This document shows, piece by piece, positions 1 through 25,930 of a stretch of 25,930 bases of DNA. Origin of the DNA: a virus. Within the stretch, counting starts at the first letter, position 1. Every line of letters starts with the position of its first letter. The stretch lies in IMG/VR virus record IMGVR_UViG_3300010883_000386, positions 1-25,930 of that record; one strand, 5' to 3'. The translations under genes were made by a program, and so were the position numbers. A model generated the notes under the pieces. It had not been told where the DNA came from. It made no database searches and saw only the letters and a list, made by a program, of their open reading frames with translations.

Positions 1-43
1 AATTTAATCAACAAGTAAATAATTTTTTAATGGAGTAATCAAT

Positions 44-1054
44 ATGGGTGCAATTGTAACCAGTAAATTCAGAACACAGAACTTGATGGTTTTCATCGAC
101 CAGTTCAAAACTACTGGTTCTGTCGATGACAACTTCCTGTATCTCGGCTTTGGACGATCTGACGTATGGCCCGATGATGCTCAAGGAAATGACGAAAGTT
201 CAGGTAACTTTACATTACCTGATCCACTAGATGAAGATGAACATCAATATTGGGTAGATATTGTTGGTACTAAACGAATTCAAAATGATGATATTTCACC
301 GGTGCTTCCCCGACTTGACTGGGATACTGGCGATACTCTCGCTTTTGATGGTGATGCTACAGCCGGCATCACGGGTATTGCTGAGCCTGGTCGCTCATTC
401 GTATCCAAAATAGGTTATCACTCTACAGTAATGAATTCAGAATATCGAGTTTATATATGTACGGGTGAGCCAGCGACTGGTAAATGTTATATTGGTGGTG
501 TTTATGATGGCGGCGTTGCTGTTTCACGAACAACTTGTGAAGATACAGTCGGCGGACTTTGGTTACCTACTGGTGCTTCTGAAGAGCCTTCTGGTTTCAC
601 AGGAGATTCCAACGGATTATTGGCTCAACCCATATTAACGTCTGATAACTATGTATGGACATTTATTTATAAACTAGAATTGAATGATATTATTAACTCG
701 ACTACAAACGACTGGATGCCTGTTATTTCGGGCGATGGTGTTCTAGCAGGTTCAGAACAAGCAGATTTTGGAGATATCGATGCAATATTTACCGCAAAGA
801 CTCACCACGGTCTAATTCACGTTAGATTGGAAACATCAGATGGATTTCCAGAAAATGATGACTTTCGACAAATTGGACTTCTACGTAACCCAGAACTAGC
901 TGGAGGTGGAACTAAGGCACAAGCGGCCGTATATGCCGATGCAGATGTAAGTCTTCAGCAAGATAGTGGGCAGTTGATTTATCTAGAGAATCGCCGAGCG
1001 ATTACTCGTGCTTCTGACCAGATAGAAGATTTAAAACTCGTAGTTGAATTCTAA
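44..1054 (+). CDS. 8: Baseplate wedge protein gp8 (T4-like)
   Basis: Structural subunit of the contractile-tail baseplate wedge. The 336-residue length is almost that of T4 gp8 (about 334). Signatures I recognise from T4 gp8 (recalled, not aligned by program) occur in order: AIVTSKFRT near residue 3, a FGRSDVW block near 36, a Cys loop with C-x18-C-x6-W about residues 148-174, DNYVWTFIYKLE near 201, FRQIGLLRNPEL near 274, and the C-terminal SGQLIYLENR...SDQIEDL block. T4 gp8 carries the same kind of Cys...Cys-GG-x-W loop. A GGAG ribosome binding site lies at about 33-36 before the ATG at 44. The upstream gene lies outside the window. The next gene starts 74 bases downstream, across a hairpin. 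Identity is close to certain; the sequence is diverged from T4. Confidence 0.93.
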   Translation: MGAIVTSKFRTQNLMVFIDQFKTTGSVDDNFLYLGFGRSDVWPDDAQGNDESSGNFTLPDPLDEDEHQYWVDIVGTKRIQNDDISPVLPRLDWDTGDTLAFDGDATAGITGIAEPGRSFVSKIGYHSTVMNSEYRVYICTGEPATGKCYIGGVYDGGVAVSRTTCEDTVGGLWLPTGASEEPSGFTGDSNGLLAQPILTSDNYVWTFIYKLELNDIINSTTNDWMPVISGDGVLAGSEQADFGDIDAIFTAKTHHGLIHVRLETSDGFPENDDFRQIGLLRNPELAGGGTKAQAAVYADADVSLQQDSGQLIYLENRRAITRASDQIEDLKLVVEF

Positions 1055-1079
1055 AAACTGTTTTTTAGAGTTAAACATA

Positions 1080-1103
1080 TATTCCTCTCAATGGGGAGGA
1101 ATA
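1080..1103 (+). other. Intergenic hairpin after gene 8
   Basis: Ten base pairs (one T-G) close an AATG tetraloop: arms 1080-1089 and 1094-1103. A T-run (1110-1115) follows, but six bases away from the stem, so this is not a textbook intrinsic terminator. It could be a weak terminator, an mRNA processing or stability element, or a structure that modulates translation of the DUF4815 gene, whose AGGA ribosome binding site is at 1116-1119. Confidence 0.5.
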
Positions 1104-1128
1104 CGAATATTTTTTAGGATGAAACCGA

Positions 1129-4100
1129 ATGGCATATAATTTTAATACATCTCCATATTATGATGATTTCTCCGCAGATGATAGATTTTTAAAAATCTTA
1201 TTTAATCCTGGGCGTGCAGTTCAAGCCAGAGAATTAACACAAATACAATCTATTCTTCAGCACCAGATGTCATCGGCTGCTAATCATATTTGGAAGAATG
1301 GATCGCCTGTCGTAGGTGGTGGAGTCAGTATCGCCAAAAGAGATTGGATGGGACTTGCCTCGGCAGATTCTACGTGGTTAAATCGTATTGTATATGGCGA
1401 AACATCATTGGCGGTTGCTGTTATTGAACAACTACACGATGATGAAACCCAACCCTACTACTATTATAGAGCCCTTTCCGGACAATTTGCACAAAGCGAA
1501 AATTTATTTACATACGATACTGTTTGTGACGGTGGTTTCGATATTAACGGAGATTGTATTGACAACTCTTGGTATGATCCTGCAATGCTGTACAAAGCGG
1601 GAGTTATCACTGGCATTGGAAAAGCATTAGAAGCGAAAGTTTCTGATGGTGTTTATTGGCTCGATGGTTTCTTTACTCCAGTTCTCGCCCAAACTATTTT
1701 TCTAGCTCCTTTATCTGATGACCCTTCTTGCCAAGTTGGATTCGATATTGAAGAAATTATCGTAGCATCAACTACTGATCCACGACTTCTTGACCCCGCT
1801 TCAGGATTCTATAATCAAAATGCTCCTGGTGGAGATAGATATCAAAAAACTCTGAAACTTATTAAAAAAGTAGATTCTGGTGAATCTAATAAGTGGATGT
1901 GGATGATGGATGTGACAGATGGTGGGATCACTACAAAATACGAATCAACTGATTATTCAATGTTGGCTGCCGAGATGGCAAAAAGAACATTTGATGAATC
2001 AGGCAACTATACTCTAAACCCATTTCCAATCGAAATGAAAGAGGGTAGTGACGCTGAGCATTTTGGAATAAGAGTTGAGCCTAGCAAAGCATACATTAAC
2101 GGATTTGAACACGAACTTTTAACTCCTATAACAATTGAAGCAGAAAGAGCAAGAACAACTCGCCACGTAGCTAATGATCATCTCAAACCAGAATTTGGAC
2201 CATATTTTGAAGTTGCAACAGTAGATGATCTACACGGTGTTTTCAATATCACCCAAAAAGAATATGTTATATTTGTAACAGATAATAATCATACTGTCGC
2301 AAATACATCTCCGAATACTATTGGAGTTCATAAACGTATTACCCACGTTACTCAAGCACTTCTATCTGGCTCTTATATAATGGGATATAGAATATATCTC
2401 GAAAATGATGTGGGGCTTGATGCAATTGCTCCTGCTCTGTATATTGTTTCAGAAACAAATGTCGGTATATACGCAAAACTTTATCGACCAACAGGTGCGA
2501 CTGTCTCGAAGGGCGTACATTATCCTTGGTTGTATAATGTTACAGATGTTGTTGCCGGATTAACTCTCGGACAAGTAACATATTCGACACAAAAGAATTC
2601 TACAGCAACCCTGACTGGTAGTGTTGCTTCAGTCCCCGCAGTTTTCGTTGATATGCACTGGGAAAAAATTCTATATATTTGGAATGACACGACTGGTACA
2701 CTTATACCTAAATTTGGAACAGTAGCATCCGGCGACACTTGGATTGATGACTTAACAGGAAATACGACCGCACTTATTACAATTGTGGATGGAAATACTG
2801 GTTCTGCATCAACGAATCTATCTGGAGACGCCATTATTATTATGGCAGATATGTATATGAGTAATGCCTCTTGGAGAAATATTACTTATATGGAAGCAGT
2901 CTCAAGTGATATTGTTCTTTCAGGAGTAAATGTAGGAGCAACATTAACTCTTCCTCACGCAGTAACAGAAGTTACTTCTATTATAGCGCCTGATACAACA
3001 GACGTAACCTCTTCATTTACTTTTACAAATGGTGATACTGATACGACTTATGATGCCGCAATTCTTACGTGGAATGATGGTATTAATGCTACTCAGGCTG
3101 GTACTTTTACAGTAACATACTCTCACTACAACCACGGTAATATTACAACCGCAACGTATTTTGCAGTTAATTCTTATACAGATGCTGGTATTCTTTATGA
3201 TAATGTTCCTGGATATCGTGATACATTAGCGGAAGAACATCCCCTTGCTGATGAGATAGACTTTAGAGCATCGGTAGCTGATTACGCAATCGGCACATAT
3301 TTGCCTATCCCAGAATCAGCCATTTCAGTATCTTTTGATTACTATCTTGGACGAAGAGATAGATTAACAATTAATGATGATGGAAAGATTCAAGTTAAAC
3401 AAGGATTTCCTTCTGATGAGCCTATGCTTCCAACAGAAGAACGAAATGAAATGACCTTGTATAATTTGATGATACCTCCGTACACGTATTTTCATAAAAA
3501 TATTAATGTATCCCACGTAGAACAAAAACGATATACGATGCAGGATATTCGGGGTATGGAAGGCCGACTAGAAAATTTAGAATATTATACCTCATTAAAT
3601 CTTCTTGAAAAATCTACTGCCGATATGCAGGTTGTAGATGAGAACGGAATGCAAAGATATAAGAATGGTATTCTAGTAGACCCATTTGCGGATCACGGTA
3701 TCGGCGATGTTTCAAATTCCAACTATTACTGTTCCATTTATCCAGAAGCCCGGATTTGTACTGTACCGTATGTAGTGTATGGTCTAGATTGTGAACCCGG
3801 AGTTACTTCAGGTGTTTCCGCAAACAATTTAACATATACATTAAATTATACTGTACAAGAGGCCTGGATCAAACAAGATCACGGCTCTCAAGTTCTTAAC
3901 TTGAATCCATTTGCAAGAAAATCTTGGATTGGATTCGCTACATTAACTCCTTCTACTGATACTTGGTTTGAAGAAACATATATGCCAGATGTTATTATTC
4001 AAAATAAAAATAATAATGCTGTTTTAAATCAAGTCGAAGAATATGGAACACAAACGAGATGGAATGCTTGGGAGACAACGTGGTCTGGTTTTAAAGATAA

Positions 4101-6576
4101 AGGTGGAAGAGATAATGTTCAAACAGGACGGGAAGTAACATTTGGTTCCAATGCTCAAAGCGGAGGATCCGCTGCCCGACAATTTACTACTGGTCGAGGA
4201 GGATCAATCAATGCCGGTTGGCGGGCAAGAACGAGAACGGCTTGGAGACAAATTGTAACGAAGGAAAGTTGGAGTCAAGAACAACAGAAGACCAGTAGTC
4301 AAATACGATCTGGTGAAAGGTCTCATATGGAAATCAATGATATTCGCACACAAGTAGGAGACAGATCCTTAGATGTTTCTGCTATTCCTTGGATGCGTTC
4401 AATACCTGTGTCTATTGATGTGGATAAGCTACGTCCAAATACTCATATGCACTTTCAGTTTGATGAAATAGACGTGGATGCTTATATCACTCCTGAAGGT
4501 GGAGCACAGGGCGATGCAGTTATGACTGATGAAAAAGGTAAAATAAGAAATGCTATTTTTCAAATTCCTTCAGAAGGTTCAGAAGGAATTAGAATCAGAT
4601 CGGGTATGAAAATACTTGCTATGAAAGACGATTTTATAGATTTCGATGCGATGACTACACAAGCAGTTGCCACCTTTACGGCTAAAGGTACTCTTGATAC
4701 ACGACAAAAAGATATAATGTCAACGTTTGAAAGTTATAGAGTAAATGAAACGCTTTCGGATGACCGTACAGTTTTGGGAGAAACTCGAACTGTTTCTCGA
4801 AGTCAAGAAACTGGTAGAAGTAAAACGCATAAGTCATTTACCGAATGGTATGATCCAGTTGCAGAATCATTTCTTGTTTCTGAATCAGATGGTGGTGCAT
4901 TCATAGATTCAATTGATTGTTATTTCTACTCAAAAGATGACGAATCTACTCCAGTCCGATTAGAAATTAGACCGATGGTGAATGGATATCCAACATCAAC
5001 AGCATTGCCAACTGCACAAGTTATGCTGTATCCTGAAGATGTTTCTGTTTCTACGAACGGTGCAGTAAGCACAAGATTTCAATTCGCTGATCCGATTTTT
5101 TTAATGGACGGGACTGAATATTGTTTTGTTATAATATCTGATTCACTTTTATATAATTTGTGGATTTCAGAATTAGGGGAAGTTGACTTACTTACTGGAG
5201 ATTATATCTCTGAGCAACCTTATCTTGGTTCTATGTTTACTTCACAAAATAATACCACTTGGACTCCAGAACAATTAATGGATGTAAAGTTCCGGATAAA
5301 TAAATGTCAATTTGCGGAAACAGGAAATGTTCAAATTAATTTGAAAGAGTATGTAGGAATTAAAGAAGTAGCTTCATTCACACCCAATTTTCAACCAATG
5401 GTTCTATCAGGAACTACTATGGATATGAATGTAATATTAAATGGTGACACAAATAATATTATTTACGGTATTCAAGATAACGAAGAAGTAGTTCTTGAAG
5501 AAGTGGAATCACTCGATGGTTCTCAAACTATAGCGGCTGGTTATCAATATACTCCAATATCATATAATGTGGAAATGACTACAAGTAATCCTAATATTTC
5601 TCCTGTTATCAATAAAGAAAGATTATCGACCATAGCTATTAATAATATTATATGGGATGCCGCGCCTACTGTCAAGAATCAAATGGGCGTCTATCTTTCA
5701 AAAGATGTCAAATTGGCAAATTTTGCAGATGATTTGCAAATGTTTTTAAGTGTACAGGAAGGTAATGAAACATATGTAAAAGTATATTATGATACAGGTA
5801 CAGTCACTCCAAGAACAATTACAGTTCTAGCATATGCAAATCTAATTACTTATGGTGATTATAATGTAAATGATTATGAAGAACAATACGCATATATTTA
5901 TCCAGCAGGGGGGAATAGTCCAGATGTTACTGTTAGAAGTAATTCTGAACAAATAGGAAGTTGGAATGGTACTATTGCTGATCCTGGACAAGGTGCTTCG
6001 GCACAAGTTTCTACAGCATACGTAGATGGAGATGATGATGAAACAAATCTCTGGTCGATGAGTCTAGTAGATATAAGCAGTATGAAAGATATTGTAACAG
6101 GTTGTTTTATTTGTACTGAAGATTTAGCAGGAGTATCGCACGACATAACTTCGTGGGGAAGTGCCGGAACAGATTTGAGTGAATATGAAGTTGGAGATAT
6201 CTGGTACGGAAGTCACGATGCGGATACTGATAGAAAATTCTGGAAGAAAATTCTTCTTCCTGATGGCTCTTATAGTAAAGAAGAAGTGCCACTTTTAGAA
6301 ATAGATAGTCAAGTTGCCGCAACACATCCTGATTTTCCGATTGGACTTGCTGTCCTTGAGGGAGAATCAATCACTTGGAGAGAAATGAAAGATGGAGGAG
6401 TGCAAATTACTAACACAGCAATATCTCTTAGTGCGGAATTTATTGAACATACCTTTACTCCATTGAAAAAAATTACTAAAGAATTCGACCATTTTAGAGT
6501 AAAAATAGAATTGCATACAACCCATCGATGTTCTTTACCAGCAATTCGAGAAATGAGAGTATTAGCAGTAACATAG
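1129..6576 (+). CDS. DUF4815-family giant virion structural protein
   Basis: Probable baseplate or proximal-fibre protein of 1,815 residues. The N-terminus (SPYYDDFSADDRFLKILF, then PGRAVQARELTQIQSILQ) is the hallmark opening of DUF4815 proteins of marine T4-like phages. Other family blocks in order: MEGRLENLEYYTSLNLLE near residue 810, RYKNGILVDPFADHG near 845, WIGFATLTPSTDTWFEE near 930, a Gln/Arg/Ser-rich stretch about 985-1085, IPWMRSIPVSIDVDKLRPNT near 1086, then about 1245-1400 a beta-rich block ending in EQPYLGSMFTSQNNTTWT. A minor Cys-Trp unit (C-x8-C-x3-W) lies near residues 133-146. The start has AGGA nine bases upstream. Its position directly after gene 8 supports a baseplate role; the exact role in the virion is not known to me. 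Confidence 0.85.
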   Translation: MAYNFNTSPYYDDFSADDRFLKILFNPGRAVQARELTQIQSILQHQMSSAANHIWKNGSPVVGGGVSIAKRDWMGLASADSTWLNRIVYGETSLAVAVIEQLHDDETQPYYYYRALSGQFAQSENLFTYDTVCDGGFDINGDCIDNSWYDPAMLYKAGVITGIGKALEAKVSDGVYWLDGFFTPVLAQTIFLAPLSDDPSCQVGFDIEEIIVASTTDPRLLDPASGFYNQNAPGGDRYQKTLKLIKKVDSGESNKWMWMMDVTDGGITTKYESTDYSMLAAEMAKRTFDESGNYTLNPFPIEMKEGSDAEHFGIRVEPSKAYINGFEHELLTPITIEAERARTTRHVANDHLKPEFGPYFEVATVDDLHGVFNITQKEYVIFVTDNNHTVANTSPNTIGVHKRITHVTQALLSGSYIMGYRIYLENDVGLDAIAPALYIVSETNVGIYAKLYRPTGATVSKGVHYPWLYNVTDVVAGLTLGQVTYSTQKNSTATLTGSVASVPAVFVDMHWEKILYIWNDTTGTLIPKFGTVASGDTWIDDLTGNTTALITIVDGNTGSASTNLSGDAIIIMADMYMSNASWRNITYMEAVSSDIVLSGVNVGATLTLPHAVTEVTSIIAPDTTDVTSSFTFTNGDTDTTYDAAILTWNDGINATQAGTFTVTYSHYNHGNITTATYFAVNSYTDAGILYDNVPGYRDTLAEEHPLADEIDFRASVADYAIGTYLPIPESAISVSFDYYLGRRDRLTINDDGKIQVKQGFPSDEPMLPTEERNEMTLYNLMIPPYTYFHKNINVSHVEQKRYTMQDIRGMEGRLENLEYYTSLNLLEKSTADMQVVDENGMQRYKNGILVDPFADHGIGDVSNSNYYCSIYPEARICTVPYVVYGLDCEPGVTSGVSANNLTYTLNYTVQEAWIKQDHGSQVLNLNPFARKSWIGFATLTPSTDTWFEETYMPDVIIQNKNNNAVLNQVEEYGTQTRWNAWETTWSGFKDKGGRDNVQTGREVTFGSNAQSGGSAARQFTTGRGGSINAGWRARTRTAWRQIVTKESWSQEQQKTSSQIRSGERSHMEINDIRTQVGDRSLDVSAIPWMRSIPVSIDVDKLRPNTHMHFQFDEIDVDAYITPEGGAQGDAVMTDEKGKIRNAIFQIPSEGSEGIRIRSGMKILAMKDDFIDFDAMTTQAVATFTAKGTLDTRQKDIMSTFESYRVNETLSDDRTVLGETRTVSRSQETGRSKTHKSFTEWYDPVAESFLVSESDGGAFIDSIDCYFYSKDDESTPVRLEIRPMVNGYPTSTALPTAQVMLYPEDVSVSTNGAVSTRFQFADPIFLMDGTEYCFVIISDSLLYNLWISELGEVDLLTGDYISEQPYLGSMFTSQNNTTWTPEQLMDVKFRINKCQFAETGNVQINLKEYVGIKEVASFTPNFQPMVLSGTTMDMNVILNGDTNNIIYGIQDNEEVVLEEVESLDGSQTIAAGYQYTPISYNVEMTTSNPNISPVINKERLSTIAINNIIWDAAPTVKNQMGVYLSKDVKLANFADDLQMFLSVQEGNETYVKVYYDTGTVTPRTITVLAYANLITYGDYNVNDYEEQYAYIYPAGGNSPDVTVRSNSEQIGSWNGTIADPGQGASAQVSTAYVDGDDDETNLWSMSLVDISSMKDIVTGCFICTEDLAGVSHDITSWGSAGTDLSEYEVGDIWYGSHDADTDRKFWKKILLPDGSYSKEEVPLLEIDSQVAATHPDFPIGLAVLEGESITWREMKDGGVQITNTAISLSAEFIEHTFTPLKKITKEFDHFRVKIELHTTHRCSLPAIREMRVLAVT

Positions 6577-6587
6577 GAAAATAAATA

Positions 6588-6836
6588 ATGGCTAAGATAC
6601 CCGAATATAGAAAAGACGAAGAGACTGGTGCTGTAATATTTCAAGATGCTAATGCCTATGCTCAACGTAAAAAGATTATTGTTAAGACTAAATTAGCAAC
6701 GATAGTAAAGAAGGACGAGCATAAGCGTATAAATAGTATGAAGAGGGAAATAAAAGACCTCAAGAAACTCGTATACGATATGATAGAAAATAATCCTGGT
6801 GGAACTGAGATTCCGCCTCCAGAGGAAGGTAACTAA
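6588..6836 (+). CDS. Small hypothetical protein with coiled-coil-like helix
   Basis: 82 residues, not recognised. The middle (about residues 22-67) is Lys/Glu-rich and predicted by eye to be helical, with a short heptad-like stretch (INSMKREIKDLKKLVYDMI); the end is Pro/Glu-rich. It starts 9 bases after the DUF4815 stop, and its stop overlaps the next start (TAATG at 6834-6838), so it is translationally coupled to its neighbours. It could be a small baseplate or fibre accessory protein or chaperone; that is inferred only from its position. A late-promoter octamer lies inside the coding sequence at 6728. Confidence 0.65.
   Translation: MAKIPEYRKDEETGAVIFQDANAYAQRKKIIVKTKLATIVKKDEHKRINSMKREIKDLKKLVYDMIENNPGGTEIPPPEEGN
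6728..6735 (+). promoter_or_regulatory. Candidate late promoter inside the 82-residue gene
   Basis: TATAAATA, the T4 late-promoter octamer, followed by GTAT; the same 12 bases occur at 15504-15515 in front of another tail gene. Transcription would start a few bases downstream, leaving an mRNA that begins with the 67-residue gene and the giant gene. It lies within codons, so chance occurrence in AT-rich DNA is possible. Confidence 0.4.
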
Positions 6837-7058: not shown

Positions 7059-10000
7059 ATGTCACAATATACATTCCAGCAGTTCTCACTAACAGAGTTA
7101 AATACGATAGAGCAACAAAAGAGTTCCTTTCTGGACTCTTTAAATATTAAGTTGTTGGCGCCCGATCTTCTAGTAAAAGACTTGGCATTGATGTTGAAGT
7201 CTCTAGAGGTAATGGAAAATTTAGAACATCTTCCAGAATATAAAGACTTTTTACTTAATATTGCAAATCGCTCGGCTAAATTTATCTCTCCGACAGAGAT
7301 GATAGAAAATGGGGGACTTGATATTACTTATGAAACTGCAAATCTAGTACAGAATAGTTCATTTTCTTCTGATGCCTTAGAGATAGAATTACTCAGAAAT
7401 GCTGGCTTCGATGTTCCAATAGATATGACTCGTCCTTGGTCAAATGGTATTGCATATCAATTTGATATTCTCTTTACTGAAGGAACTGAAATTGTTCAAG
7501 CATATACTGATGGACAACAAGTTGCTCTTGCTTGGTTCGAAGCCGATTTAAATCCTAATACACAATACAAATTTTCATACGATCTTACAGTTAGTGATGT
7601 AAATTGGGATTTACCACAAGGTGCTGTTAATATGGTCGACCAGTTAGCATCAGACCCAGGAACTTTCTCAGAGCAGGGCGGTGGACCAGATCCAAAAACA
7701 TATATTGTTTCTGTTATTGAAGATGCATCCTTAGTACGTCCTACTTGTGACGGAGTTGCAATTGAATATCTAGAATCAATCACCGCTATGGAAGTTGCTT
7801 GTCTTGCTCTAGGACACGTATGGGCTCCAGGAAACATCAACGATCCACAAACACAAGCACATACTCTTATTCCTTATCACTTAGAAGCACGAGAAGGTGA
7901 CACAATTATTTTTACGAATCCTTCTACTTCTATTTTAGTCCACAATGCAGTATCAGATGATAATATTTCTTTTGCTTCTCCTGACTTGGAGCCGGGCGAA
8001 GATTGGCCTTGGGTTATAGACGGTTATCACGATTTATATTTCCACTGTACATTTCACCCTCTAGAAGAAGGTCGATTGTCTTCTACAACGAATCACCGAT
8101 TCGTTTATTCTATCGATCACAATTTAAATCCCGGTGATACAATTAAAGTTCCTATTAACTATGGATCAAATATTGCCCTTCCATCGTTAAGTAATTCATA
8201 TCACATTAATTTGGTAATGCCTCAGGTTTGTACCTCAGTAGGTGGTGCAGGAAACCAGAATGTTGTAGAATCACTTTATCACGATCTTTCAATAGACGAT
8301 TTAGTAACATTTCAATCTGGTGCTGTTGAAACTAATCCAAATGCTGGTGTTCCTGTAGATGTAGTTTTCTCCGGGGGAAGTGATGGAGTCAATACACAAC
8401 ACGCTACCGGCGAAACTACAGTAGTTGGTGGTGTTGTAACAAATGCGGAACTAACCTCAGGAGGTACTGCTTATATTAGTATACCGACAGTATATATTAC
8501 TGGCGGAGGTGGAGCTGGTGCTACTGCATCTATTGAGTTTAGTGGAATATTTGATGACTATCTTATGACGAATGTTGGCAGCGGATATCTATCTGTGCCT
8601 ACTGTAGTAATTAGTGCGCCAGATGTCGCTACTTTAGCTGATCCGGGGAATGGTACTTGTACTGGTAATGCAAATCATAATGATGATGAATTATCCTGTT
8701 TAGCCGATGGTACTTGTTCTGATGGAACATATGATGGTAATGAAGCAGCCTGTTTAGCCGCAACTGAAACTTGGACACCTGCAAATAATACTTGGACAGA
8801 TGCAACTGTCGCAACTGTTCAAGCGACAGCAACAGCAACTTTAACAAGTGGTGGCGAAATCGATATAATTACAATTGACGATGGTGGAAGTGGATATCAC
8901 CTTCCTCCAACAGTCACACTATCGGGAGGTTCACCAACAGTTGCTGGAACATTAGATGCTTACATCAATGGTACAGTTATCACACTCTTACTAACTGCTG
9001 GCGGAACTGGATATGGTTCAGGTGACGGTTCAGTTGGAGTAGGCGAAAGAAAATGGGAAGAATATATCATCACCGCAGTACAAAAAGGTGATGCACGAGT
9101 AGACGTATTTTTTGATGATGTTAATTTCATCGGACACATTCATACTGCTGAATTGACCACGGCCGAATATGCGGCTATTCAAACTGGAGCTCCTACAGTT
9201 GTTATGACTTCTGTTGATGGAGATGGTTCTGGTGAAAATGCACCTCACTCTCACGCAGTTACATACGATTGGGATCCTGCATTAAACAATGGTGCAGGTG
9301 GAATGTATATGGTGGGTATGACAGGTTCTCATACACACGGTTTGGAGAACTACTACGATATTAGTGGTGGAACGAAAATCGAACTTACTAACTTTGGCCA
9401 CTATCACGAAATCCTGCTTAATTTGGCTGACGAAGCAACACTTAAAGCAAGTCCTCTTACTGGAGTTACACAAGACAACGACGGAACTTGGAGTGCCACT
9501 GGAGGTGCTACATTAATACGAACTTCTGATTATGGTACTTCAGACCCTCAGCATTTTCATACTGTCGAATTAGGTTGTCTTACCCCCGGGGATGATATCT
9601 ATTTAATTATATCAATCGATTTTCATATTCACGATTTTGATAGAGTCTGGTATCCAGGTTCTTCTCAATTCACAGTTGGGCAATATGACTTTGCACAAGG
9701 TGGAGATGATCTCAATCCCACATCTATTGCAATTCCATTCTCAGACATTACGGGCTATGTGAAGAAATTACGTGGAATTGAATGTGATACACACGGCCTT
9801 TTAGCGGGCGATAGAGTCCATTATCAAAATGTTTATCTCGGCATTCATCACGGTAATACCAACTATTATATAGATTTTATTATTGATGAAGATCACTTTG
9901 TACTCACAGAAACAGTAATTTATCCTTTAACAGATGCTACTGGTACTACACCTACTGTATTCAATCTTATTGAAGAATATACAGTTGTTGTGGATATGGC

Positions 10001-15558: not shown

Positions 15559-18500
15559 ATGTCAGTAACATTATCAAGCATTAATACCGCGGTCGACCCG
15601 TTTAACGACATACCAGATATTACTTTCGATAGTATCGATGTCACGGCCTTTACCGAAGAAGTAGAGATATATACCAATACACCAGCGGTGATGATCCCTA
15701 GCAAATTGAACGCTATGGCGGCATCAATGAAAGGGTGGTTGAATGATAATGTTTCTGCTCCATTAGAAAATCAACAAAACACTTTCAAAAACGAAGTTGT
15801 TGTTCGTACTAATACGGCAATGGCGGCAGTAGAAACCTATATGAACGATGAGGTTCAAGGTTTCGTAAATACAATCTTTGTTCCTTGGGCAAACGATTCC
15901 GGCAACGTTCTGTCTAATCACGCCAATCAACTAGAAGGTAATGTTACAGGAACTCTTGGACAATTACAGGCTGATTATACAGCCCACGTTATATCTCAAG
16001 ACCTTCTCATCGCCCAAGCCCTTGCAGATATTTTAGTAACGTTATCTCAATATACTTCAGGCGCATCCGATTCTGGTTATACGGTTCATCAGACAAATGA
16101 ACTGATGGCCGATATCACAATGACACGGCAGATAGCGTTCTCTGATTATTTGTATGATGCTAACGATGATGTCATATTCGCTCACGAAGGTCCTAACATT
16201 ACTCATCACATTAATTACAATCCAATAAATGGAGAGGTTTTGTCTTTTGGAGAGTCAATGCAAATTTTTGGTGAGCCTCGTCCTTTTATTCAACATTTGA
16301 GACTAGAATTAAGTCCTCAAGATACTCCATCAGTCTCACAAATTAAAGCATATGATGCGTTTAGAAACGAGTCGGCCGGTGCTATATTTTCATTCAGAAT
16401 TAGTGGACACGAAGCAAATGGTGAACCAGCAGAAGAATTAACTATTTTAAATAATGCTTCTGTTCCTGATGTTGATAATCCAACTCTTGCAGTAAGACGA
16501 GGAAAAGAATCCGCATTGCTGTGGGGTGGAATAGAAGATGGAGATTTTGTTAAAATAGTTGAATTAGATGGCACTACAATTTACAACGAGGGAATTTCTA
16601 ATAACTATGCTCAAGACTATGAAACTATGTTATTTAAACCTCATCAATCCTATTGTCACGATGCTTCATCAGCAGTAACTGGATGGGGAATTATTGCAGG
16701 TGACCACGCAAGTGACGTAGATGGATCTGGTGGAGATCACGACACTCCACTTACCTGTGAAGAGTATGTAACTTCTGATGTCGCCCTTTTAGATGACTTT
16801 ACTCGTTCTTATGAATACAGTTTGCCTGGAGAATCTTACGAAAGTGCCTTATCTGACGGACTGATTTATAAAGTTTTTATTAATGATGATACAGGATTTA
16901 TTGATTCTTACGCATATACAGTTGATGCAAATGGTAAAACAGGTACTGGTGCTATACTTAATGCTGTCTATGATGACGGTGTTTCCGATGTCACTATGAC
17001 ATCACCAGGCACCGGTTATTCCGTTAATACTCAAGCAAGAGTATTTGATTTAGGTGCTGTAGATGTCGCCGGTTCAGTGGAAACAAAAGCTACGGCTTCT
17101 CATACTCTTAAAAATGGAATGGTTGATTCTATTGTTGTTACAGATCCTGGTGCAGGTTATACTGGATACTGGGAAGTAGATGTAGCAGATGGAGGTAACG
17201 GACATACTCATACAATTCAATTAACTCAAACAGAAGTCGATGATATTATGGATGGTGGAATTGTCACTTCAACAACTGTTGATGCTGGACACACTCACGA
17301 CCAAGTTGTAATGTGGAACGCATTTAATAGTTCTTTCGAGTTTACAGGAACTTCAGGCTCCCATAATCATCCATTAGCCCTCGCAACCCACACAACCAAT
17401 CCAACAATTACTCCTGTATTCACTACCTCTACTGGCGGTCTTGCTACTGGCACAGTTTTTCTTAAAATAGATGATACACTTGACCGAGTAGAGATTACAA
17501 ATGGCGGAGCAGATTATGTTACCGCAGATACGGTTGCTATTACTGGTGGAACACCATCAGCGACAGGAACCATTACTATGAGTTTAGCGGATGGTGGAAT
17601 TGCTAGTTTCGCAGTAGGTGTACAGGGAACTGGATATACCGATACGGCTGCCAAAACAGTTTTAGTTGATATTCAAAACAATGCGTTTATTCCAAATGTT
17701 ATCTCTGCTAATGTAGGAGATTCTGTTGCATTTACAAATCAGGATATTTCAGCACATACTGTTACACACGAAGGTGGAATGTTTGATTCAGGAAATATTC
17801 CTCAGAATGCAACATTTACATATATAATTACAAAAGATACTGAAAAAACAGATAAGTATGAAATCTTCGATTCTAATCTCGTAACCACTAAAGCAACTCT
17901 ATGGGTACGTGATTCCTCAGTCTATGTGGATATGATTTCTGCTACTGGCGGAGGGATACGAGGACTAGCTACTGTTAACGCAAGTGGCAATGTTATTAAC
18001 ATTGCTGTAGATAGACCAGGACAAGGCTATGATGCAGTTGTCGATTCAGTAAAAATAGTTGATGTATCTGGACCTGGTGAAGGAGCTTATGCTTCTGTAG
18101 CTACAGATCGTAGCGTTGGAGAAGTTACTATAGGAGCTGGAGGTGCAGCCTATTCAGTAGATACAAAAATGATAGCATTTGATGCTACTGGATTTCCAGT
18201 ATACGATGTAGATGGAACTACTGAAATTGATCGATCATATGGTCACGGAGCAATCTTAAAACCAATAATTAGTAGTGAATTTATTGCTGGATATTGTGCA
18301 GATCCCCAATGGTTGAATGAAGTAGATTGTCTTGCATCAGCCCAATTCTGGTATGCAGATGTCGAAATTGGTCAAATAACAACTATAAATGTAATTGCTG
18401 GTGGAAGTGGATATAACGATATCGAATTCGTTATTAATGATCCAGCAGAAGAAGGTGCAGGTGCTGTTATGACCCCAGACCTTAATAATGTTGTTTCAGG

Positions 18501-19140
18501 TGTCACCTTTTCTGCAAGAGGAACTAACTATGATGAACCTTTTATTGTAATATCTGATGTTGGAGGTTTAATTGGCTCTACAAATAGCTCAGTAGGTAAT
18601 GGATTTGCTGGTACAGTCGAGCTAAATAATGGTATAGGATCAGCAACTATAGTTAATGATTGGCAAGATTATGAAGTTGGAGAAACAAGAGTTGTAGTCG
18701 CCGATGCACACGCCGATCCTACTGGATACGGTGCTGAAGGTATAGCTACTCTAGGAGTTTCAGGGAATGTGGAAGGTGTTGAAATAACTAATCCAGGCTC
18801 AGGATACAAATCACCTGTTGTAATGGTAGCAGGACCTGTGTTGCTGACTGGTTCATCAATTAACAATGTTAATGTTGATTTAGCACTATATGGACCAGAA
18901 GGAAATGAAAACTCATCTCCATACTCAGATAATAATACTGCTAATACTAACTTTAAAAATGGTATAATGATTCAATTTGAGAATCCTAACGGACACACAT
19001 TGAACGATTCCTGGACATTCAAATTGCAATCTTGGAAACTGGGTACTCCTGCAAGTTTACTATATACTTCTAGTAGATACGATGGTGCTCTCGAAAATAT
19101 GAGAGGTATTATTACTCTCAAAGATGTTTGGGAAGTATAA
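15559..19140 (+). CDS. 1,193-residue fibre-like virion protein with GxGY, HxH and cupredoxin-like modules
   Basis: Probable tail fibre or adhesion protein. The N-terminal ~190 residues are helical and Ala/Asn-rich (SKLNAMAASMKGWLNDNV), like fibre shafts or attachment segments. Then come beta-rich domains, a Cys pair (C...TCEEY) near 360-400, GxGY repeats (SPGTGYSV, DPGAGYTG, GGADYVTA, VQGTGYTD, AGGSGYND, NPGSGYKS), an HxH block (H549/H551, H578/H580, H602/H604), a cupredoxin-like domain about 693-775 (H733, H737) that lacks the C-x2-H-x-x-M end, and a Cys-Trp unit (C-x12-C-x6-W) near 914-935. The C-terminal ~80 residues look like a separate globular cap. It shares its modules with the giant protein upstream, so they may be parts of one structure. 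GGAG precedes the start; two late promoters lie upstream. Confidence 0.8.
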   Translation: MSVTLSSINTAVDPFNDIPDITFDSIDVTAFTEEVEIYTNTPAVMIPSKLNAMAASMKGWLNDNVSAPLENQQNTFKNEVVVRTNTAMAAVETYMNDEVQGFVNTIFVPWANDSGNVLSNHANQLEGNVTGTLGQLQADYTAHVISQDLLIAQALADILVTLSQYTSGASDSGYTVHQTNELMADITMTRQIAFSDYLYDANDDVIFAHEGPNITHHINYNPINGEVLSFGESMQIFGEPRPFIQHLRLELSPQDTPSVSQIKAYDAFRNESAGAIFSFRISGHEANGEPAEELTILNNASVPDVDNPTLAVRRGKESALLWGGIEDGDFVKIVELDGTTIYNEGISNNYAQDYETMLFKPHQSYCHDASSAVTGWGIIAGDHASDVDGSGGDHDTPLTCEEYVTSDVALLDDFTRSYEYSLPGESYESALSDGLIYKVFINDDTGFIDSYAYTVDANGKTGTGAILNAVYDDGVSDVTMTSPGTGYSVNTQARVFDLGAVDVAGSVETKATASHTLKNGMVDSIVVTDPGAGYTGYWEVDVADGGNGHTHTIQLTQTEVDDIMDGGIVTSTTVDAGHTHDQVVMWNAFNSSFEFTGTSGSHNHPLALATHTTNPTITPVFTTSTGGLATGTVFLKIDDTLDRVEITNGGADYVTADTVAITGGTPSATGTITMSLADGGIASFAVGVQGTGYTDTAAKTVLVDIQNNAFIPNVISANVGDSVAFTNQDISAHTVTHEGGMFDSGNIPQNATFTYIITKDTEKTDKYEIFDSNLVTTKATLWVRDSSVYVDMISATGGGIRGLATVNASGNVINIAVDRPGQGYDAVVDSVKIVDVSGPGEGAYASVATDRSVGEVTIGAGGAAYSVDTKMIAFDATGFPVYDVDGTTEIDRSYGHGAILKPIISSEFIAGYCADPQWLNEVDCLASAQFWYADVEIGQITTINVIAGGSGYNDIEFVINDPAEEGAGAVMTPDLNNVVSGVTFSARGTNYDEPFIVISDVGGLIGSTNSSVGNGFAGTVELNNGIGSATIVNDWQDYEVGETRVVVADAHADPTGYGAEGIATLGVSGNVEGVEITNPGSGYKSPVVMVAGPVLLTGSSINNVNVDLALYGPEGNENSSPYSDNNTANTNFKNGIMIQFENPNGHTLNDSWTFKLQSWKLGTPASLLYTSSRYDGALENMRGIITLKDVWEV

Positions 19141-19153
19141 TTGAATAAATTTA

Positions 19154-19167
19154 TATAAATATAAATA
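19154..19167 (+). promoter_or_regulatory. Overlapping late-promoter octamers
   Basis: TATAAATATAAATA contains two TATAAATA copies sharing two bases (19154-19161 and 19160-19167), 37-50 bases before the first Cys-rich gene and in the gap after the 1,193-residue gene. It probably drives the whole adhesin-chaperone block, since no similar motif is seen before 20200, 21017 or 21991. Confidence 0.75.
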
Positions 19168-19203
19168 ATAGAAATGAATATTAAAATACTGGAGAACAAC
19201 TAA

Positions 19204-20187
19204 ATGGATATACTAACACTAGGAAAAATGAATGCAATGGCGAGGGATGTTAACGTCACGTTAGAATATCTAGCCAATTCTACTTTTCAAGCACTTAAAG
19301 ATACTTGTGATACTCAAGAGGGTATGGCTGCCGGACTCGATCAAACGGCCCAAGATGCCGTAGACACTCTTAATGCGGCCGGCCCAAATATAGGAACACA
19401 AACAAGAGAATTCTACAACGATTGTGCTAGAGGCTGTTGTTGCTTCTGTGGATGTTCAGCTACCTGGACAGTTCCCACTGACTCAGTTAAAACGATTAAG
19501 TTTGAAGCCTGGGGCGGCGGTGGAGCTGGTGCAGGTCATTGTTGTCAGGGTTGTTATTGCGATATAGGATCTTGTGCCTCTTCTGGAGGAATGTATTCTC
19601 GAAAGACTCTTTGTCAGGACAAACACGGCTTTGCTGAAGGTACAGTCTACAATATTTGTTTAGGGGATGGTGGTAATGGATCAAGTCGATGTTGGACAGC
19701 TTGTTGTGGAGAGAGTCCCACCAATCGAGGTTGTATAACATATGTAAATGGTCAAGGTCTTACCAACTTTTGTGCTGTTGGCGGAAGAGGCGGATACAAT
19801 ATATATTGTACTTGTCAATGTAATATGAATATTTGCTGGTTGGAGAATGGCGAATGTCACGGACATATTATGTGTTCACCCAACCAGTGTGCTGTAGAAA
19901 CCTCCGTTGATTGGTCTCAAGGCGCTCACGGGATGGCCGCCTATTACGGAGATAACTGTCATTGTGGTGGTAGATGGATAACAACTGGCACATCAGAAGG
20001 ATTGAACAATTCATTACAGCAGGCCGTCGGATGGTATGCCGCACAATGCGGATGCGAAACTCCCTGCAGAACTATGAGACACGCTGGAGGAGGAATGAAT
20101 GCGATGAAATCACGTTGTGGCGGATGGCTCTGCAATTGTCTCGGTTCACCTGGAAAACCAGGTTTAGTTAGAGTAACATATTCATAA
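19204..20187 (+). CDS. Cys- and Gly-rich candidate receptor-binding protein, copy 1
   Basis: 327 residues with 34 cysteines (about 10%). N-terminus MDILTLGKMNAMAR, identical to the first 14 residues of the copy at 21017; residues 1-65 look helical and probably attach it to a fibre. At T87-P91 begins a TWTVP...VKTIKFEAWGGGG segment, the usual opening of glycine-rich phage tail-tip domains, and the protein ends with GLVRVTYS, the usual closing strand. Between them the glycine-rich body is studded with Cys clusters such as CARGCCCFCGC, HCCQGCYC and CTCQCNMNIC. Glycine-rich tips of this type bind receptors in other phages (polyglycine-II adhesins). No zinc-finger or metallothionein fold is recognised. 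GGAG precedes the start. The following gene is a chaperone-like partner. Confidence 0.75.
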   Translation: MDILTLGKMNAMARDVNVTLEYLANSTFQALKDTCDTQEGMAAGLDQTAQDAVDTLNAAGPNIGTQTREFYNDCARGCCCFCGCSATWTVPTDSVKTIKFEAWGGGGAGAGHCCQGCYCDIGSCASSGGMYSRKTLCQDKHGFAEGTVYNICLGDGGNGSSRCWTACCGESPTNRGCITYVNGQGLTNFCAVGGRGGYNIYCTCQCNMNICWLENGECHGHIMCSPNQCAVETSVDWSQGAHGMAAYYGDNCHCGGRWITTGTSEGLNNSLQQAVGWYAAQCGCETPCRTMRHAGGGMNAMKSRCGGWLCNCLGSPGKPGLVRVTYS

Positions 20188-20199
20188 AGGATATTAAAA

Positions 20200-20985
20200 A
20201 TGGGAAGAGAAGCAGATCCGGAAACTTGGAAAGAATGGGTAAACGTAGATTATACCTATGATTGTCCTACGGACAATTATTTAGAAGGTACGACTATGGA
20301 AGAAATTACAGAACATTACTATGGACCAGCCAGACTTGTTTGTCTTGTTGATAAAGTAGATAATACTGTAGAAGCAACCATAAGAGAATGGGAAGCATAC
20401 GATGGGCGACCGGGTAGATTGAATTGCGATGAAGTTGTAATTGACTGTGCTACGAATGCTCTTCTTTGCGAAGTGATGTCTAATTATCATAATAATCATT
20501 TAGATTTGGGATCAACAAATCCCAATTTTGGTGGTTGGGAAGGTGTTGGAGATGTTGAAACGGGTGATGTAAAGCATATTACTGATATTTATCCAGATGG
20601 TGTTACAGAAGATCCTCGTGAACAAAGATCAATTAAAACACCTGATGGTTATGAAGAATTTGAATGGCATTATCCTATGCATCCAGACGAATTATACAAT
20701 GATGCTAAAACGACTTATATAGATGGAGAATGGACGTTGTATAGAAATAAGAATATTGATATACTTGGACCCTCCGAGATGCACGAGGTGAGACATCACA
20801 GAAATACAATCTTGATGAACACGGATGGCATCGCTGGCGCAACTGATGCTCCTGATAGTTTACGAGATCCTGTCTTAGCAATGCGACAAAAATTACGTGA
20901 TTTACCTGAGGAATTAAAGGATATAGATGATGTATTCATTCCTTCTTGTTTTCCAGACACTAAAATTTTAGACCACAACGATTGA
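20200..20985 (+). CDS. Tail-assembly-chaperone-like partner of adhesin copy 1
   Basis: 261 residues. The C-terminal part, M194 to about 249, has RHHRNTILMNTD...MRQKLRDLPEEL, matching the R-x-x-R-x-x-L-x-x-TD...R-x-x-LRDLP pattern of phage tail assembly chaperone proteins (Phage_tail_APC type). The N-terminal part shares YxGPA, DGRP and V-x-IDC-x-x-N-x-L-x-C blocks with the protein at 21991, so they are paralogues. It starts 12 bases after the adhesin stop (AAGGA site), suggesting coupled synthesis. By analogy it would help fold, trimerise or attach the preceding Cys-rich protein, or form part of the tip. The motif is clear, the partner assignment is from position. Confidence 0.7.
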   Translation: MGREADPETWKEWVNVDYTYDCPTDNYLEGTTMEEITEHYYGPARLVCLVDKVDNTVEATIREWEAYDGRPGRLNCDEVVIDCATNALLCEVMSNYHNNHLDLGSTNPNFGGWEGVGDVETGDVKHITDIYPDGVTEDPREQRSIKTPDGYEEFEWHYPMHPDELYNDAKTTYIDGEWTLYRNKNIDILGPSEMHEVRHHRNTILMNTDGIAGATDAPDSLRDPVLAMRQKLRDLPEELKDIDDVFIPSCFPDTKILDHND

Positions 20986-21016
20986 GTAACAAAGCAATAA
21001 TAATTAAGGATCAAGA

Positions 21017-21967
21017 ATGGATATACTAACTCTAGGAAAAATGAATGCGATGGCTCGCAATACTGGTGTGGCATTAGAGTTAATGGCAAATCACTTATAC
21101 GAGTCTCAGCAAGAAATATGCAATTTTCAAGCCTCCAATATGGATACAATCAACGTAGCCGTAAATGATGGACTTGGAAATATTACCGCCGCAGGAGGTA
21201 AATTTATATGTTTCCAATGCGAATTACCATTTATGTGTCATACATCACACGATTCTGCCGGCAATGGTGGCTGTCATTTAGCTTGGACAGTTCCTGAAGC
21301 AGTCAAAGTAATTAAGATTGAACTACAAGGTGGCGGAGGCTCTGGAGGACCAAGCACGTGTTGTATGATTGGACGAGGAGGTGGAACCGGAGCATATGCT
21401 GATAAAACGCTCTACTCATCAGATTTTGGACCTGGATTGGGTTCAGACTTTTCCGCAGGTGATGTTTATGATTTTTGTTCAGGCGGAACAACTCCTTGTA
21501 GTTGTTGCGGTTGTTGCACTGGAATCTATGCGTGTGGTTGGTGCGGATGTCCTTCATACGCAACCGGCAACGGATTATCTGGTTTTTGTGCAAATGGCGG
21601 AACAGGTGGATGGAATAGATGCTCAGGATACTGCCACGGTTGCTTTACTATGTCTCAAAACGGTAACTGCTACTCACAACCTGCTTGTGCTTGCGGATCT
21701 TGGGATCATCAGATACAAGGCGCATCAGGAACACTTGTAGAACACAGATGGTGTTGGTCTGGTAAGCATACGATGGCTGGAGCTGGTACTGGCCCATACG
21801 CGGCATCGAGTGGCCCAGGTATGGATGGATGTCGAGCATACAAAGGTTGCTGTAATAATCACACTCTGTTTCCATCAGGTGGAGGAGGAACTCCCTATGG
21901 ACACTCTAGTTGTTGTTATGGCGGCTGGGGTGCTAGTGGACTTGTTAAAGTAACTTATTGGAAATAA
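21017..21967 (+). CDS. Cys- and Gly-rich candidate receptor-binding protein, copy 2
   Basis: 316 residues with 29 cysteines (about 9%). Same plan as copy 1: N-terminal MDILTLGKMNAMAR, helical segment to about residue 60, A89-P93 AWTVP then VKVIKIELQGGGGSGG, glycine-rich body, and closing GLVKVTYWK. The body is strongly diverged: Cys clusters differ (CSCCGCCTGIYACGWCGC near residues 160-178, YGHSSCCYGGW near the end) while both framing strands are kept, which is what variable receptor-binding tips usually show. AAGGA lies upstream of the start and no promoter is seen in the 31-base gap after the preceding gene. Exact function inferred. Confidence 0.75.
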   Translation: MDILTLGKMNAMARNTGVALELMANHLYESQQEICNFQASNMDTINVAVNDGLGNITAAGGKFICFQCELPFMCHTSHDSAGNGGCHLAWTVPEAVKVIKIELQGGGGSGGPSTCCMIGRGGGTGAYADKTLYSSDFGPGLGSDFSAGDVYDFCSGGTTPCSCCGCCTGIYACGWCGCPSYATGNGLSGFCANGGTGGWNRCSGYCHGCFTMSQNGNCYSQPACACGSWDHQIQGASGTLVEHRWCWSGKHTMAGAGTGPYAASSGPGMDGCRAYKGCCNNHTLFPSGGGGTPYGHSSCCYGGWGASGLVKVTYWK

Positions 21968-21990
21968 TTAAAGTAAAGGGATAATAAACT

Positions 21991-22770
21991 ATGGCAAATA
22001 TTACTAAAACGATCACTTACGCTATTCCTGATAAGTGGCAAGAACAAACTACTGCATTGGGCAAAACGTCCACGCAGACTTATACAGGACCTGCAATTGT
22101 TGTGGCAGTAGTTCAGACTAATGATGTATATCCAGATGGTAGAGTTGTAAATGCTTACGATAAATCAAAAGATGATGGTAGACCTCTAGCGGCTGATTTT
22201 GAATATGTTGATATTGACTGTGATAAAAATCCATTACATTGTGGTATATTATGGGGAGGTTTTGATCCGCCTGCTCACTTTGAAGTTGAAGTTGGTCCAG
22301 CAAGTAGATTAAATCCTACCGTTGCTGATCCTACTCATCCATCTGAAGTATTTGACATAATGTCATTTACTGATGGCTGGGATGGAAGTAAATGGAAAAC
22401 ACCTGAGTTCTCGAAGCCTGAGGCTGATGATGCAGATATGGATACAGTCAGAGAAGGTAGAAACGACTTGCTTGAAGCTACTGATCATCAAGTCGCGGAA
22501 GATATGCCTGAAGACATTAAAAAGCAATGGGTTGATTATCGCCAAGAATTACGAGATTTACCAGCAGATTATCCAGATGGTACACCTCCATATTTGATTA
22601 CATTTCCGGCGGCACCAAATGAGGTAAATCAAAGTTCAGAAATTCAAGGTGGTGAAGTGACGGATTCGGCAAATGAAGATGCGGGAGAAGGAGTTGTTCC
22701 TATCTCGGCACAAGGTTCACGAACAGACTGGCAAGGTCAGTTACCTCCAGGTATTGCTTCAGCAGATTAA
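21991..22770 (+). CDS. Tail-assembly-chaperone-like partner of adhesin copy 2
   Basis: 259 residues. The C-terminal half holds the clearer version of the chaperone motif: R154-E-G-R157-N-D-L-L-x-x-TD165, then W180-V-D-Y-R184-Q-E-L-R-D-L-P191. The N-terminal half keeps YTGPAIVV, DDGRP (about 66) and VDIDCDKNPLHC blocks shared with the protein at 20200. About 50 further residues rich in Glu, Ser, Gly and Asn follow the motif and look disordered. It lies 23 bases after the second Cys-rich gene and is the last gene before the terminator. Role inferred as folding or attachment of the preceding protein. Confidence 0.7.
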   Translation: MANITKTITYAIPDKWQEQTTALGKTSTQTYTGPAIVVAVVQTNDVYPDGRVVNAYDKSKDDGRPLAADFEYVDIDCDKNPLHCGILWGGFDPPAHFEVEVGPASRLNPTVADPTHPSEVFDIMSFTDGWDGSKWKTPEFSKPEADDADMDTVREGRNDLLEATDHQVAEDMPEDIKKQWVDYRQELRDLPADYPDGTPPYLITFPAAPNEVNQSSEIQGGEVTDSANEDAGEGVVPISAQGSRTDWQGQLPPGIASAD

Positions 22771-22794
22771 TTGATTATTTATACCGATTAATAC

Positions 22795-22829
22795 AAAAGG
22801 ATCTCTTAACACAAAGGGATCCTTTTTTT
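22795..22829 (+). terminator. Strong intrinsic terminator ending the structural block
   Basis: A 13-base-pair stem (one G-T pair), arms 22795-22807 and 22814-22826, closes a six-base loop and runs directly into seven T residues (22823-22829). It sits 25 bases after the last chaperone-like stop and just upstream of a sigma70-type promoter, so it insulates the two transcription units. Confidence 0.9.
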
Positions 22830-22854
22830 ATGTCATATAAGTAAAAGAAAAGAC

Positions 22855-22883
22855 TTGACAAGTAGTGATTATTATGTTATAAT
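22855..22883 (+). promoter_or_regulatory. Consensus sigma70 promoter with extended -10
   Basis: TTGACA at 22855-22860, a 17-base spacer, TATAAT at 22878-22883, and TG at 22875-22876 giving an extended -10. Every consensus position matches. DNA upstream is A/T-rich. Start of transcription is expected near 22890, about 40 bases before the glycosyltransferase ATG. This is a promoter that host RNA polymerase would use without phage late factors, unlike the TATAAATA sites of the structural genes. Confidence 0.9.
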
Positions 22884-22928
22884 TATTGCAATTATTAAGA
22901 TTATTTTTTAAAATTCAAGTGAGGTGAT

Positions 22929-24134: not shown

Positions 24135-24137
24135 ATT

Positions 24138-25930
24138 ATGAGTCAGTGGATTGCTGGTATTGCCAGAGGACATAATAGTGGGGTTTGTTTATTGAAAGAT
24201 GGAGAGATTGTTTTCGCAATAGAAGAGGAGCGAATGACTCGACAAAAATATGATGGCGGACCGTATAGGTCATTGATTAAAATTCTAGATTATACGGACA
24301 AAATAGATTTGCTAGTTATTGCTCATACCCAACCAGATGTTAGCCGAATTGATTTTAGGGGCGGTGATATATGTACAGGACTTGCACAAAAATTAGGTTT
24401 AATTGAGGACTCTCAGCCGACCAAAGGAAATGATCCTTCATCGAGTCAAGTATTGGATTTGCACAAATGGCATCACAAGATGCACGCCTCTTGTGCTTTT
24501 TATCGTTCAGGCTTTGAAGAAGCTGTAGCAGTTATTGTTGATGGTGCTGGAACATTTATTGGGGTGAATATGGGAGAAAACTCAATGAATGATGATGATA
24601 TGTCTTGGGAATTAGAAACTATATTTGATTGTTCTTATCCAGATAATTTAAAAACTCTCTATAAACATCTAGCTGGTAGAGGACCTTGGAAAAGTGTTCA
24701 CATACAAGAACAATCTTCAGAACGAGAGGCCGAGGAAGGAACTCACGAATTAATCATTGATGATTGTGCCGGAATTGTTAAAGCATATGAAGCCGTGACT
24801 CAATATTGTGGATTTCATCCTATTGAAGCAGGTAAGACGATGGGGTTATTTCCATATGGCGGCCCAGCAGATTATTTTCCAGATATTTACACAGACGCCG
24901 GTGGCAGTGCTTGGAAAACCGCAGATAGAAATTTGATTATTCCAACATATCCTAACGGAGCATTGGTGAATGAAGGACGTTGGAGAGAATTAAACTCTAC
25001 TCCAGAGGAATCTGAAGGCAAAGTAGATGTAACTTTGAATCAGAATCGTAGGGATATGGCATATGCTGTTCAGACAGAATCACAACAAATGGTTCTTGAT
25101 TTGATACGCAAAGCAGTTAAGATGAGTGGTAAGAAAAATGTTGTTATCTCTGGTGGATATGGACTTAATTGTGTCGCTAATTATTGGTATCTTGATCAAT
25201 TAAAAGACGAAGATATAAATCTCTATGTAGAACCTGTCTCTAATGATGCGGGAACGGCAATGGGAGCCGCGCTTTTGGCTCACTATGCACTCACAAAAGA
25301 TACAAAAGTAAGACCATTTGGAGAGAACCTGTGTCTTGGACCAAGTGTAATGCAGTCTGAAGAAGAAATTTTTGCAATTGCAAAGAAATATAACGCAACT
25401 GGTATATATGAAAAACAATATTCTCCAGATGCGGTGAAACTTATCTTGAAAGGAAATATAGTCACTTTGTTTCAAGATAGGTGTGAGAACGGCCCGAGGG
25501 CTTTGGGCAATCGTTCTATCCTATATGATCCGCGTGAAATTGACGGAAAAGACTATGTAAACTCCGTGAAAAAAAGGGAGTATTTCCGTCCATTCGCCGG
25601 GTCAATTCTTCACGAACACGCACACGACTGGTTTGATATGAGAGGGATGGAAGAATCTCCTCATATGATGTACGCAATGAATTGTAAAGAAGGAGTCGCA
25701 GAAAAAATTCCAGCAATCATTCACATAGATGGAACTTGTAGAATTCAAACTGTTAAAAAACATCAAAATCCTATTTATTATGAAATGATTGACCAATTTT
25801 ATAAAGAGACTGGAGTACCAATACTATTCAATACATCTTTCAATCTTGCAGGTGAACCACTTGTGGAAACAATTGATGATGCTCTTAGAACATTAGCTGA
25901 AAGTGACATCGAATATCTATATATACCAGA
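24138..25930 (+). CDS. NodU/TobZ-type carbamoyltransferase (3' end outside window)
   Basis: 597 codons are open to the window edge with no stop. The family transfers carbamoyl from carbamoyl phosphate, through a carbamoyladenylate, to a sugar or other hydroxyl group. Motifs in order: ARGHNSGVCLL near residue 8, H112-H113-x-x-H116-A-S-C-A-F, DGAG near 139, GKTMGLFPYG near 233, SGGYGLNC at 338-345, SNDAGTAMGAAL near 370, NGPRALGNRS at 451-460, YFRPFAGSILHEHAHDW near 480, and FNTSFNLAGEP from 564. Known members have about 570-610 residues, so only a short end is missing. All motif positions I know are kept. AAGGA precedes the ATG. Related genes occur in other marine T4-like phages. It is probably co-transcribed with the GT9-like gene; the target sugar is unknown. 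Confidence 0.92.
   Translation, partial: MSQWIAGIARGHNSGVCLLKDGEIVFAIEEERMTRQKYDGGPYRSLIKILDYTDKIDLLVIAHTQPDVSRIDFRGGDICTGLAQKLGLIEDSQPTKGNDPSSSQVLDLHKWHHKMHASCAFYRSGFEEAVAVIVDGAGTFIGVNMGENSMNDDDMSWELETIFDCSYPDNLKTLYKHLAGRGPWKSVHIQEQSSEREAEEGTHELIIDDCAGIVKAYEAVTQYCGFHPIEAGKTMGLFPYGGPADYFPDIYTDAGGSAWKTADRNLIIPTYPNGALVNEGRWRELNSTPEESEGKVDVTLNQNRRDMAYAVQTESQQMVLDLIRKAVKMSGKKNVVISGGYGLNCVANYWYLDQLKDEDINLYVEPVSNDAGTAMGAALLAHYALTKDTKVRPFGENLCLGPSVMQSEEEIFAIAKKYNATGIYEKQYSPDAVKLILKGNIVTLFQDRCENGPRALGNRSILYDPREIDGKDYVNSVKKREYFRPFAGSILHEHAHDWFDMRGMEESPHMMYAMNCKEGVAEKIPAIIHIDGTCRIQTVKKHQNPIYYEMIDQFYKETGVPILFNTSFNLAGEPLVETIDDALRTLAESDIEYLYIP

Follow-up and report, generated by a model that had tools for sequence, protein, structure and literature searches.

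Why is one tetranucleotide almost missing from a phage genome? The window, i.e. the whole stretch of 25,930 bases analysed here, is the complete IMG/VR record of a phage fragment and is depleted of CATG along its entire length. An initial annotation made from the sequence had attributed this to selection against a CATG-cutting restriction enzyme and had hoped that the avoidance would identify the host. Here, the count was compared with null models and with relatives gathered with carbamoyltransferase, terminase, DNA polymerase and topoisomerase as queries.

Gene content and CATG count of the window

The window carries a T4-like gene set with a gp8 baseplate wedge protein, a DUF4815 structural protein, a tail-assembly chaperone and a NodU-type carbamoyltransferase (Table 1). 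The gp8 homologue places the phage among the T4-like myoviruses, and a lytic marine T4-like myovirus is the best explanation for the window. Its terminase shares about 54-55% identity with the terminases of marine cyanophages and of one pelagiphage. No nucleotide match to the window was found among 50,697 phage records. The final 2,512 bases of the window recur at 100% identity in a metagenomic contig (L001), which extends 8.6 kb further with zero CATG, and another contig (L118) continues the window at 99.8% identity.

The 2807-aa protein (7059-15482) contains repeated cysteine-rich segments, e.g. CLADGTCSDGTYDGNEAACLAA, that resemble surface-adhesin repeats. Two glycine- and cysteine-rich fibre-like proteins (19204-20187 and 21017-21967) have a common N-terminus, MDILTLGKMNAMAR. 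This shared N-terminus and the alternation with two paired small proteins suggest a duplicated fibre module.

Table 1. Features of the window
Feature	Position	Strand	Remarks
T4 gp8 baseplate wedge homologue	44..1054	+	PF09215, E 9e-32
Large structural protein with DUF4815	1129..6576	+	1815 aa
Fibre/adhesin-like protein	7059..15482	+	2807 aa; holds the single CATG
Sole CATG	10314..10317		In-frame His codon CAT, next codon GAT; peptide context Glu-Gly-Ala-His-Asp-Thr-Pro; lies within the 2807-aa protein
Structural protein	15559..19140	+	1193 aa; Pfam: no match
Four genes, two fibre-like alternating with two others	19204..22770	+	Second of the others matches PF16778, phage tail assembly chaperone
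NodU/Nol-like carbamoyltransferase	24138..25928	+	Open at window end; query used to find relatives

The exact count of CATG is one, at the position reported before. Expected are 90.6 from base composition, 138 under a first-order and 84 under a maximal-order Markov model, and 136 +/- 11 in 100 dinucleotide shuffles. The most stringent null model was codon shuffling, in which the synonymous codons of each amino acid were permuted among its positions, so that proteins and codon usage stay fixed. It covers 11 genes, which is 97% of the window, and yields 83.1 +/- 6.2 CATG with a minimum of 67 in 400 shuffles (z -13.3). The near absence noted earlier is confirmed. Site elimination was defined as an observed/expected ratio below 0.1 at an expectation above 15; the ratios found are 1/83 (codon-shuffled) and 1/84 (maximal-order Markov) in the window and 2/515 in a 124-kb relative. 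CATG is a palindrome, falls into the 4-6 bp range of palindromes considered for Type II sites and matches the specificity of NlaIII and CviAII.

The depletion is specific. When the 256 tetramers were ranked against the codon-shuffled null, restricted to words of useful expectation, CATG was lowest with 0.012, followed by CGTC (0.46) and AGCT (0.47); none besides CATG was below 0.46. Among the control tetramers that had been called frequent, some show mild deficits as well: AGCT (35 vs 75), GATC (88 vs 124) and TGCA (104 vs 132).

Codon choice had been proposed to be shaped by the avoidance, and this applies: before G, His is encoded 66 times by CAC and once by CAT; before A, C or T, CAT is used 97 times and CAC 47 times. 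C precedes none of the 173 ATG codons. Start codons do not follow C either, as had been stated, which with 11 genes only is weak by itself. Mutational and compositional effects can deplete words. However, neither amino acids nor codon usage nor related tetramers account for the loss of CATG under the codon-shuffled null, which rules out codon or composition bias as its source.

Loss of CATG and other palindromes in relatives

The loss of CATG is not local, but extends over more than 100 kb and throughout an entire clade. A 124,360-base relative contains 2 CATG vs 515 expected, a 49,607-base relative (about 50 kb) 0 vs 239, and several relatives of 16-30 kb contain 0-2. The 124-kb relative also carries auxiliary genes for a NifU/IscU-type scaffold (L085:2755-3135), a tryptophan-halogenase-like flavoprotein (L085:5679-7373) and AIR synthase (PurM; L087:1310-2314).

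Every record is a metagenomic contig, and a sequencing or assembly artefact, e.g. a CATG-cutting library step, could in principle remove the word. However, CATG-free contigs were obtained from many datasets, alongside phage contigs that do carry CATG: observed/expected counts are 0/53 (L004) and 23/27 (L046) in 3300020373, 0/65 (L005) and 26/51 (L027) in 3300001683, and 0/67 (L033) and 40/54 (L054) in 3300031598. This rules out a library artefact, and the chance that any such technical cause applies is negligible.

On a terminase tree with 51 rows, the CATG-free state requires one change and covers all 25 rows of one clade, and in the sister clade, CATG reaches 0.21-0.65 of what a first-order model predicts. 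Within the CATG-free clade, a second set of phages lacks CATG, GATC and AGCT together. Its 48-51-kb contigs show 0/0/0, and a 55-kb contig 2/0/3 vs 280/225/176 expected. In this set, GATC is at 0 and AGCT at 0-3, and ATGCAT (0/143), GACGTC (2/55), AACGTT (4/151) and TTCGAA (6/143) are scarce, too. Set membership was assigned from the counts, and pooled totals of the sets are therefore descriptive, not independent tests. GCWGC is depleted in both sets, and the frequency of GANTC in the phages studied here is close to normal. Intermediates (L198, L284-L286, L128) have no CATG and 4-6 GATC of 31-50 expected. One degenerate motif for all avoided words was considered and rejected, since scans of 4- to 6-mers and gapped words yielded separate palindromes (and GCWGC, CGWCG).

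GATC and AGCT need four and five changes on the tree, respectively. The sub-clade of the window, in which both are near normal, is nested among the triple-free rows (path supports 93, 88 and 95, with some inner forks open). Most simply, this would mean that avoidance of GATC and AGCT was gained and then released in this sub-clade; repeated gain is the alternative. The mild AGCT and GATC deficit of the window could be a remnant of the former avoidance. Hence, the clade provides a natural series: a CATG-free base, nested phages that lack CATG, GATC and AGCT, intermediates, and a sub-clade in which GATC and AGCT have largely returned.

Each T4-like lineage has its own missing palindromes. More distant marine T4-like contigs (L164, L165, L167, L221, L225, L276) contain no GATC, AGCT or ACGT, but have not eliminated CATG; a C5 cytosine methylase gene is located at 27355-28410 of the contig to which L165 and L221 belong (G020). 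Other T4-like contigs (L174, L185, L188, L271; L190-L193; L178-L184) lack GTAC wholly, or have very little TGCA or AATT.

The mode of removal was determined at conserved residues. Comparison of CATG-bearing sisters with CATG-free phages identified 77 CATG sites on such residues, and 76 of them were changed silently, in all three codon frames. The products are CACG in 38 cases (His CAT to CAC), TATG in 22, CTTG in 8 and others in 8. The one conserved site lies in the gp23 major capsid gene of the 124-kb contig (L084:3960-3963), is one of its two CATG sites and is also present in the CATG-bearing sister G002. At conserved residues, control palindromes were retained far more often, namely to 23-27% between G002 and G001 (GTAC 34/126, TGCA 37/147, ACGT 35/152).

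These products bear on the possibility that CATG disappeared without selection, through cytosine methylation and deamination, codon usage or polymerase bias. The 22 changes to TATG could have arisen by deamination. However, half of the silent losses lead to CACG, which excludes deamination as the cause, and others are third-base changes before TG. Furthermore, codon usage was fixed in the null model, and the loss of one word of 256 tetramers here and of multiple palindromes elsewhere does not fit a general bias. A purely mutational or compositional origin is therefore extremely improbable.

A restriction enzyme in the hosts as probable agent

Selection against CATG is well supported by the codon-shuffled null, the silent removal in three frames, the single clade-wide change and similar losses in marine T4-like isolates. 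Thus, the part of the initial annotation that concerned word-specific selection stands, and the enzyme behind it is what we infer. The lineage has very probably eliminated the site of a CATG-specific, NlaIII-type Type II enzyme met in its bacterial hosts. On encounter with such an enzyme, a site-free genome would stay uncut, and every new CATG would be selected against. Removal would proceed by any silent change available: His CAT to CAC, another third base before TG, or T or A for C before ATG. That the agent belongs to the host and is of Type II is suggested by the palindromes lost in nested and other lineages, as would be left behind by restriction specificities that change over time. Likewise, the near-normal GATC and AGCT in the sub-clade of the window may reflect release from other enzymes. 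Methylases of the families PF02086 (D12), PF01555 (N6/N4) and PF00145 (C5) were not found in the contigs of this clade, which are partial genomes, in searches whose controls worked. This means, nothing was seen that would make avoidance unnecessary. Against an enzyme of the hosts it counts that cultured relatives with known hosts lack palindromes, too (ACGT in Mosig, CCGG in S-CAM1), and that their isolation hosts are not known to be rich in restriction systems.

The nuclease might instead be encoded by the phage itself. T4-like phages without modified bases need a means to tell host from own DNA, and phage-encoded CATG restriction is known from the CviAII-like enzymes of chloroviruses. A methylase-free CATG nuclease could degrade host DNA and spare a site-free genome, which would replace the modified bases of T4 in self/host discrimination. 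The near-absolute, clade-wide elimination is what an enzyme present in every infection would demand. However, the NlaIII/ICEA family (PF05315) was not found in 22 phage contigs, a weak search, as its positive control was silent as well, and HNH nucleases (PF01844) were absent from the related contigs in a search whose control worked. A scan of 69 proteins of uncertain function against Pfam and PHROGs revealed, among the 25 families listed for each, one SNase-like protein besides genes of T4 type or of metabolism; the nucleases named were of T4-core or repair types, apart from the SNase-like protein. In addition, GATC, AGCT and several 6-mers were lost, too, which would need several such enzymes. 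A phage-encoded cutter is unlikely in this clade, whose genomes are partial and contain many ORFs without a family, and self-restriction as the cause of the avoidance is very unlikely.

Another sequence-specific host defence, e.g. a modification-dependent or phosphorothioation-linked one, might read CATG in place of a classical Type II enzyme. This would suit the present data in that the avoided word is seen and the enzyme is not, and the absence of GATC in haloviruses has been discussed together with such systems (PMC7230728). However, in a published survey, elimination is common only for sites of orthodox Type II enzymes and stays under 0.5% for other types (PMC6286503), and each of CATG, GATC and AGCT is a classical Type II specificity of four bases. 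Such a defence is an improbable agent here.

The hope that avoidance of CATG would reveal the host was disappointed; the data point only to a bacterial and, judged from gene content, probably Gram-negative host. Related phages encode the gp55 late sigma factor (E 1.7e-59 to PHROG 234; E 1.6e-23 to gp55 in PDB), which implies a bacterial RNA polymerase and hence a bacterial host. A triple-free contig (G013) encodes a Gram-negative porin (PF13609; L310:12349-13239), whose only match in the phage collection is the porin of Pelagibacter phage HTVC008M (28%). At L310:17683-19724, two adjoining proteins resemble TET-associated glycosyltransferases (PF20691) in a contig without a C5 methylase; they might serve DNA or surface glycosylation.

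Two specific hosts were considered. Several contigs presumably originate from oxygen-minimum-zone samples, e.g. Saanich Inlet, and SUP05 was contemplated for this reason; a SUP05 virus paper provided nothing on restriction. An archaeal host was prompted by the loss of AGCT and GATC in the second set, as methylation of these two words is a conserved pair in Thaumarchaeota (PMC6329791); it was set aside since the phages encode T4 gp55. A scan of genomes for a host-associated copy yielded only terminase relatives with 45-53% identity in three MAGs, without CATG elimination.

If an enzyme of the hosts is the agent, complete site elimination over a T4-like genome of more than 100 kb is a strong record of the restriction specificity met by an uncultured phage. 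Such records might help to assign hosts to uncultured phages through methylation motifs, and to measure the speed at which marine restriction pressure comes and goes.

Comparison with known systems

In non-temperate dsDNA phages, 7.1% of Type II sites are eliminated at a ratio below 0.1 (Rusinov et al., 2018; PMC6286503). The case described here is alike in that a Type II palindrome of presumably lytic phages has an observed/expected ratio below 0.1. That survey covered isolates with known hosts; the ratio found here is about 0.004-0.012.

Isolates of the HF1 group of haloviruses wholly lack GATC and CTAG, and HRTV-7 lacks AGCT, too (PMC7230728). They also represent a myovirus lineage from which several palindromic tetramers and many 6-mers including TTCGAA are absent, and host restriction has been invoked. 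In contrast to the phages studied here, they are known isolates of archaeal hosts with known host enzymes, their CATG is only reduced (0.24-0.44), and most of them carry a methylase (PMC7230728). In about half of 33 pelagiphages, GANTC is depleted (PMC9516812). This, too, concerns a methylation motif in marine phages and follows phage phylogeny, but both the motif and the phage groups are others (PMC9516812).

Further parallels are marine T4-like isolates (Kyanoviridae), which belong to the same broad phage group and have completely lost single palindromes. Observed/expected counts are 0/89 for ACGT in Mosig, 0/66 for CCGG and 2/77 for GGCC in S-CAM1, 1/67 for TCGA in HTVC008M and 0/37 for CCGG in S-SSM7. 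However, none of them is without CATG, which reaches 0.36-0.75 of its expected number in the 50-kb stretches analysed. The present case of restriction-site elimination is striking but ordinary in kind; it stands out by how complete it is and by avoided words that were gained and released in a nested manner inside a single clade.
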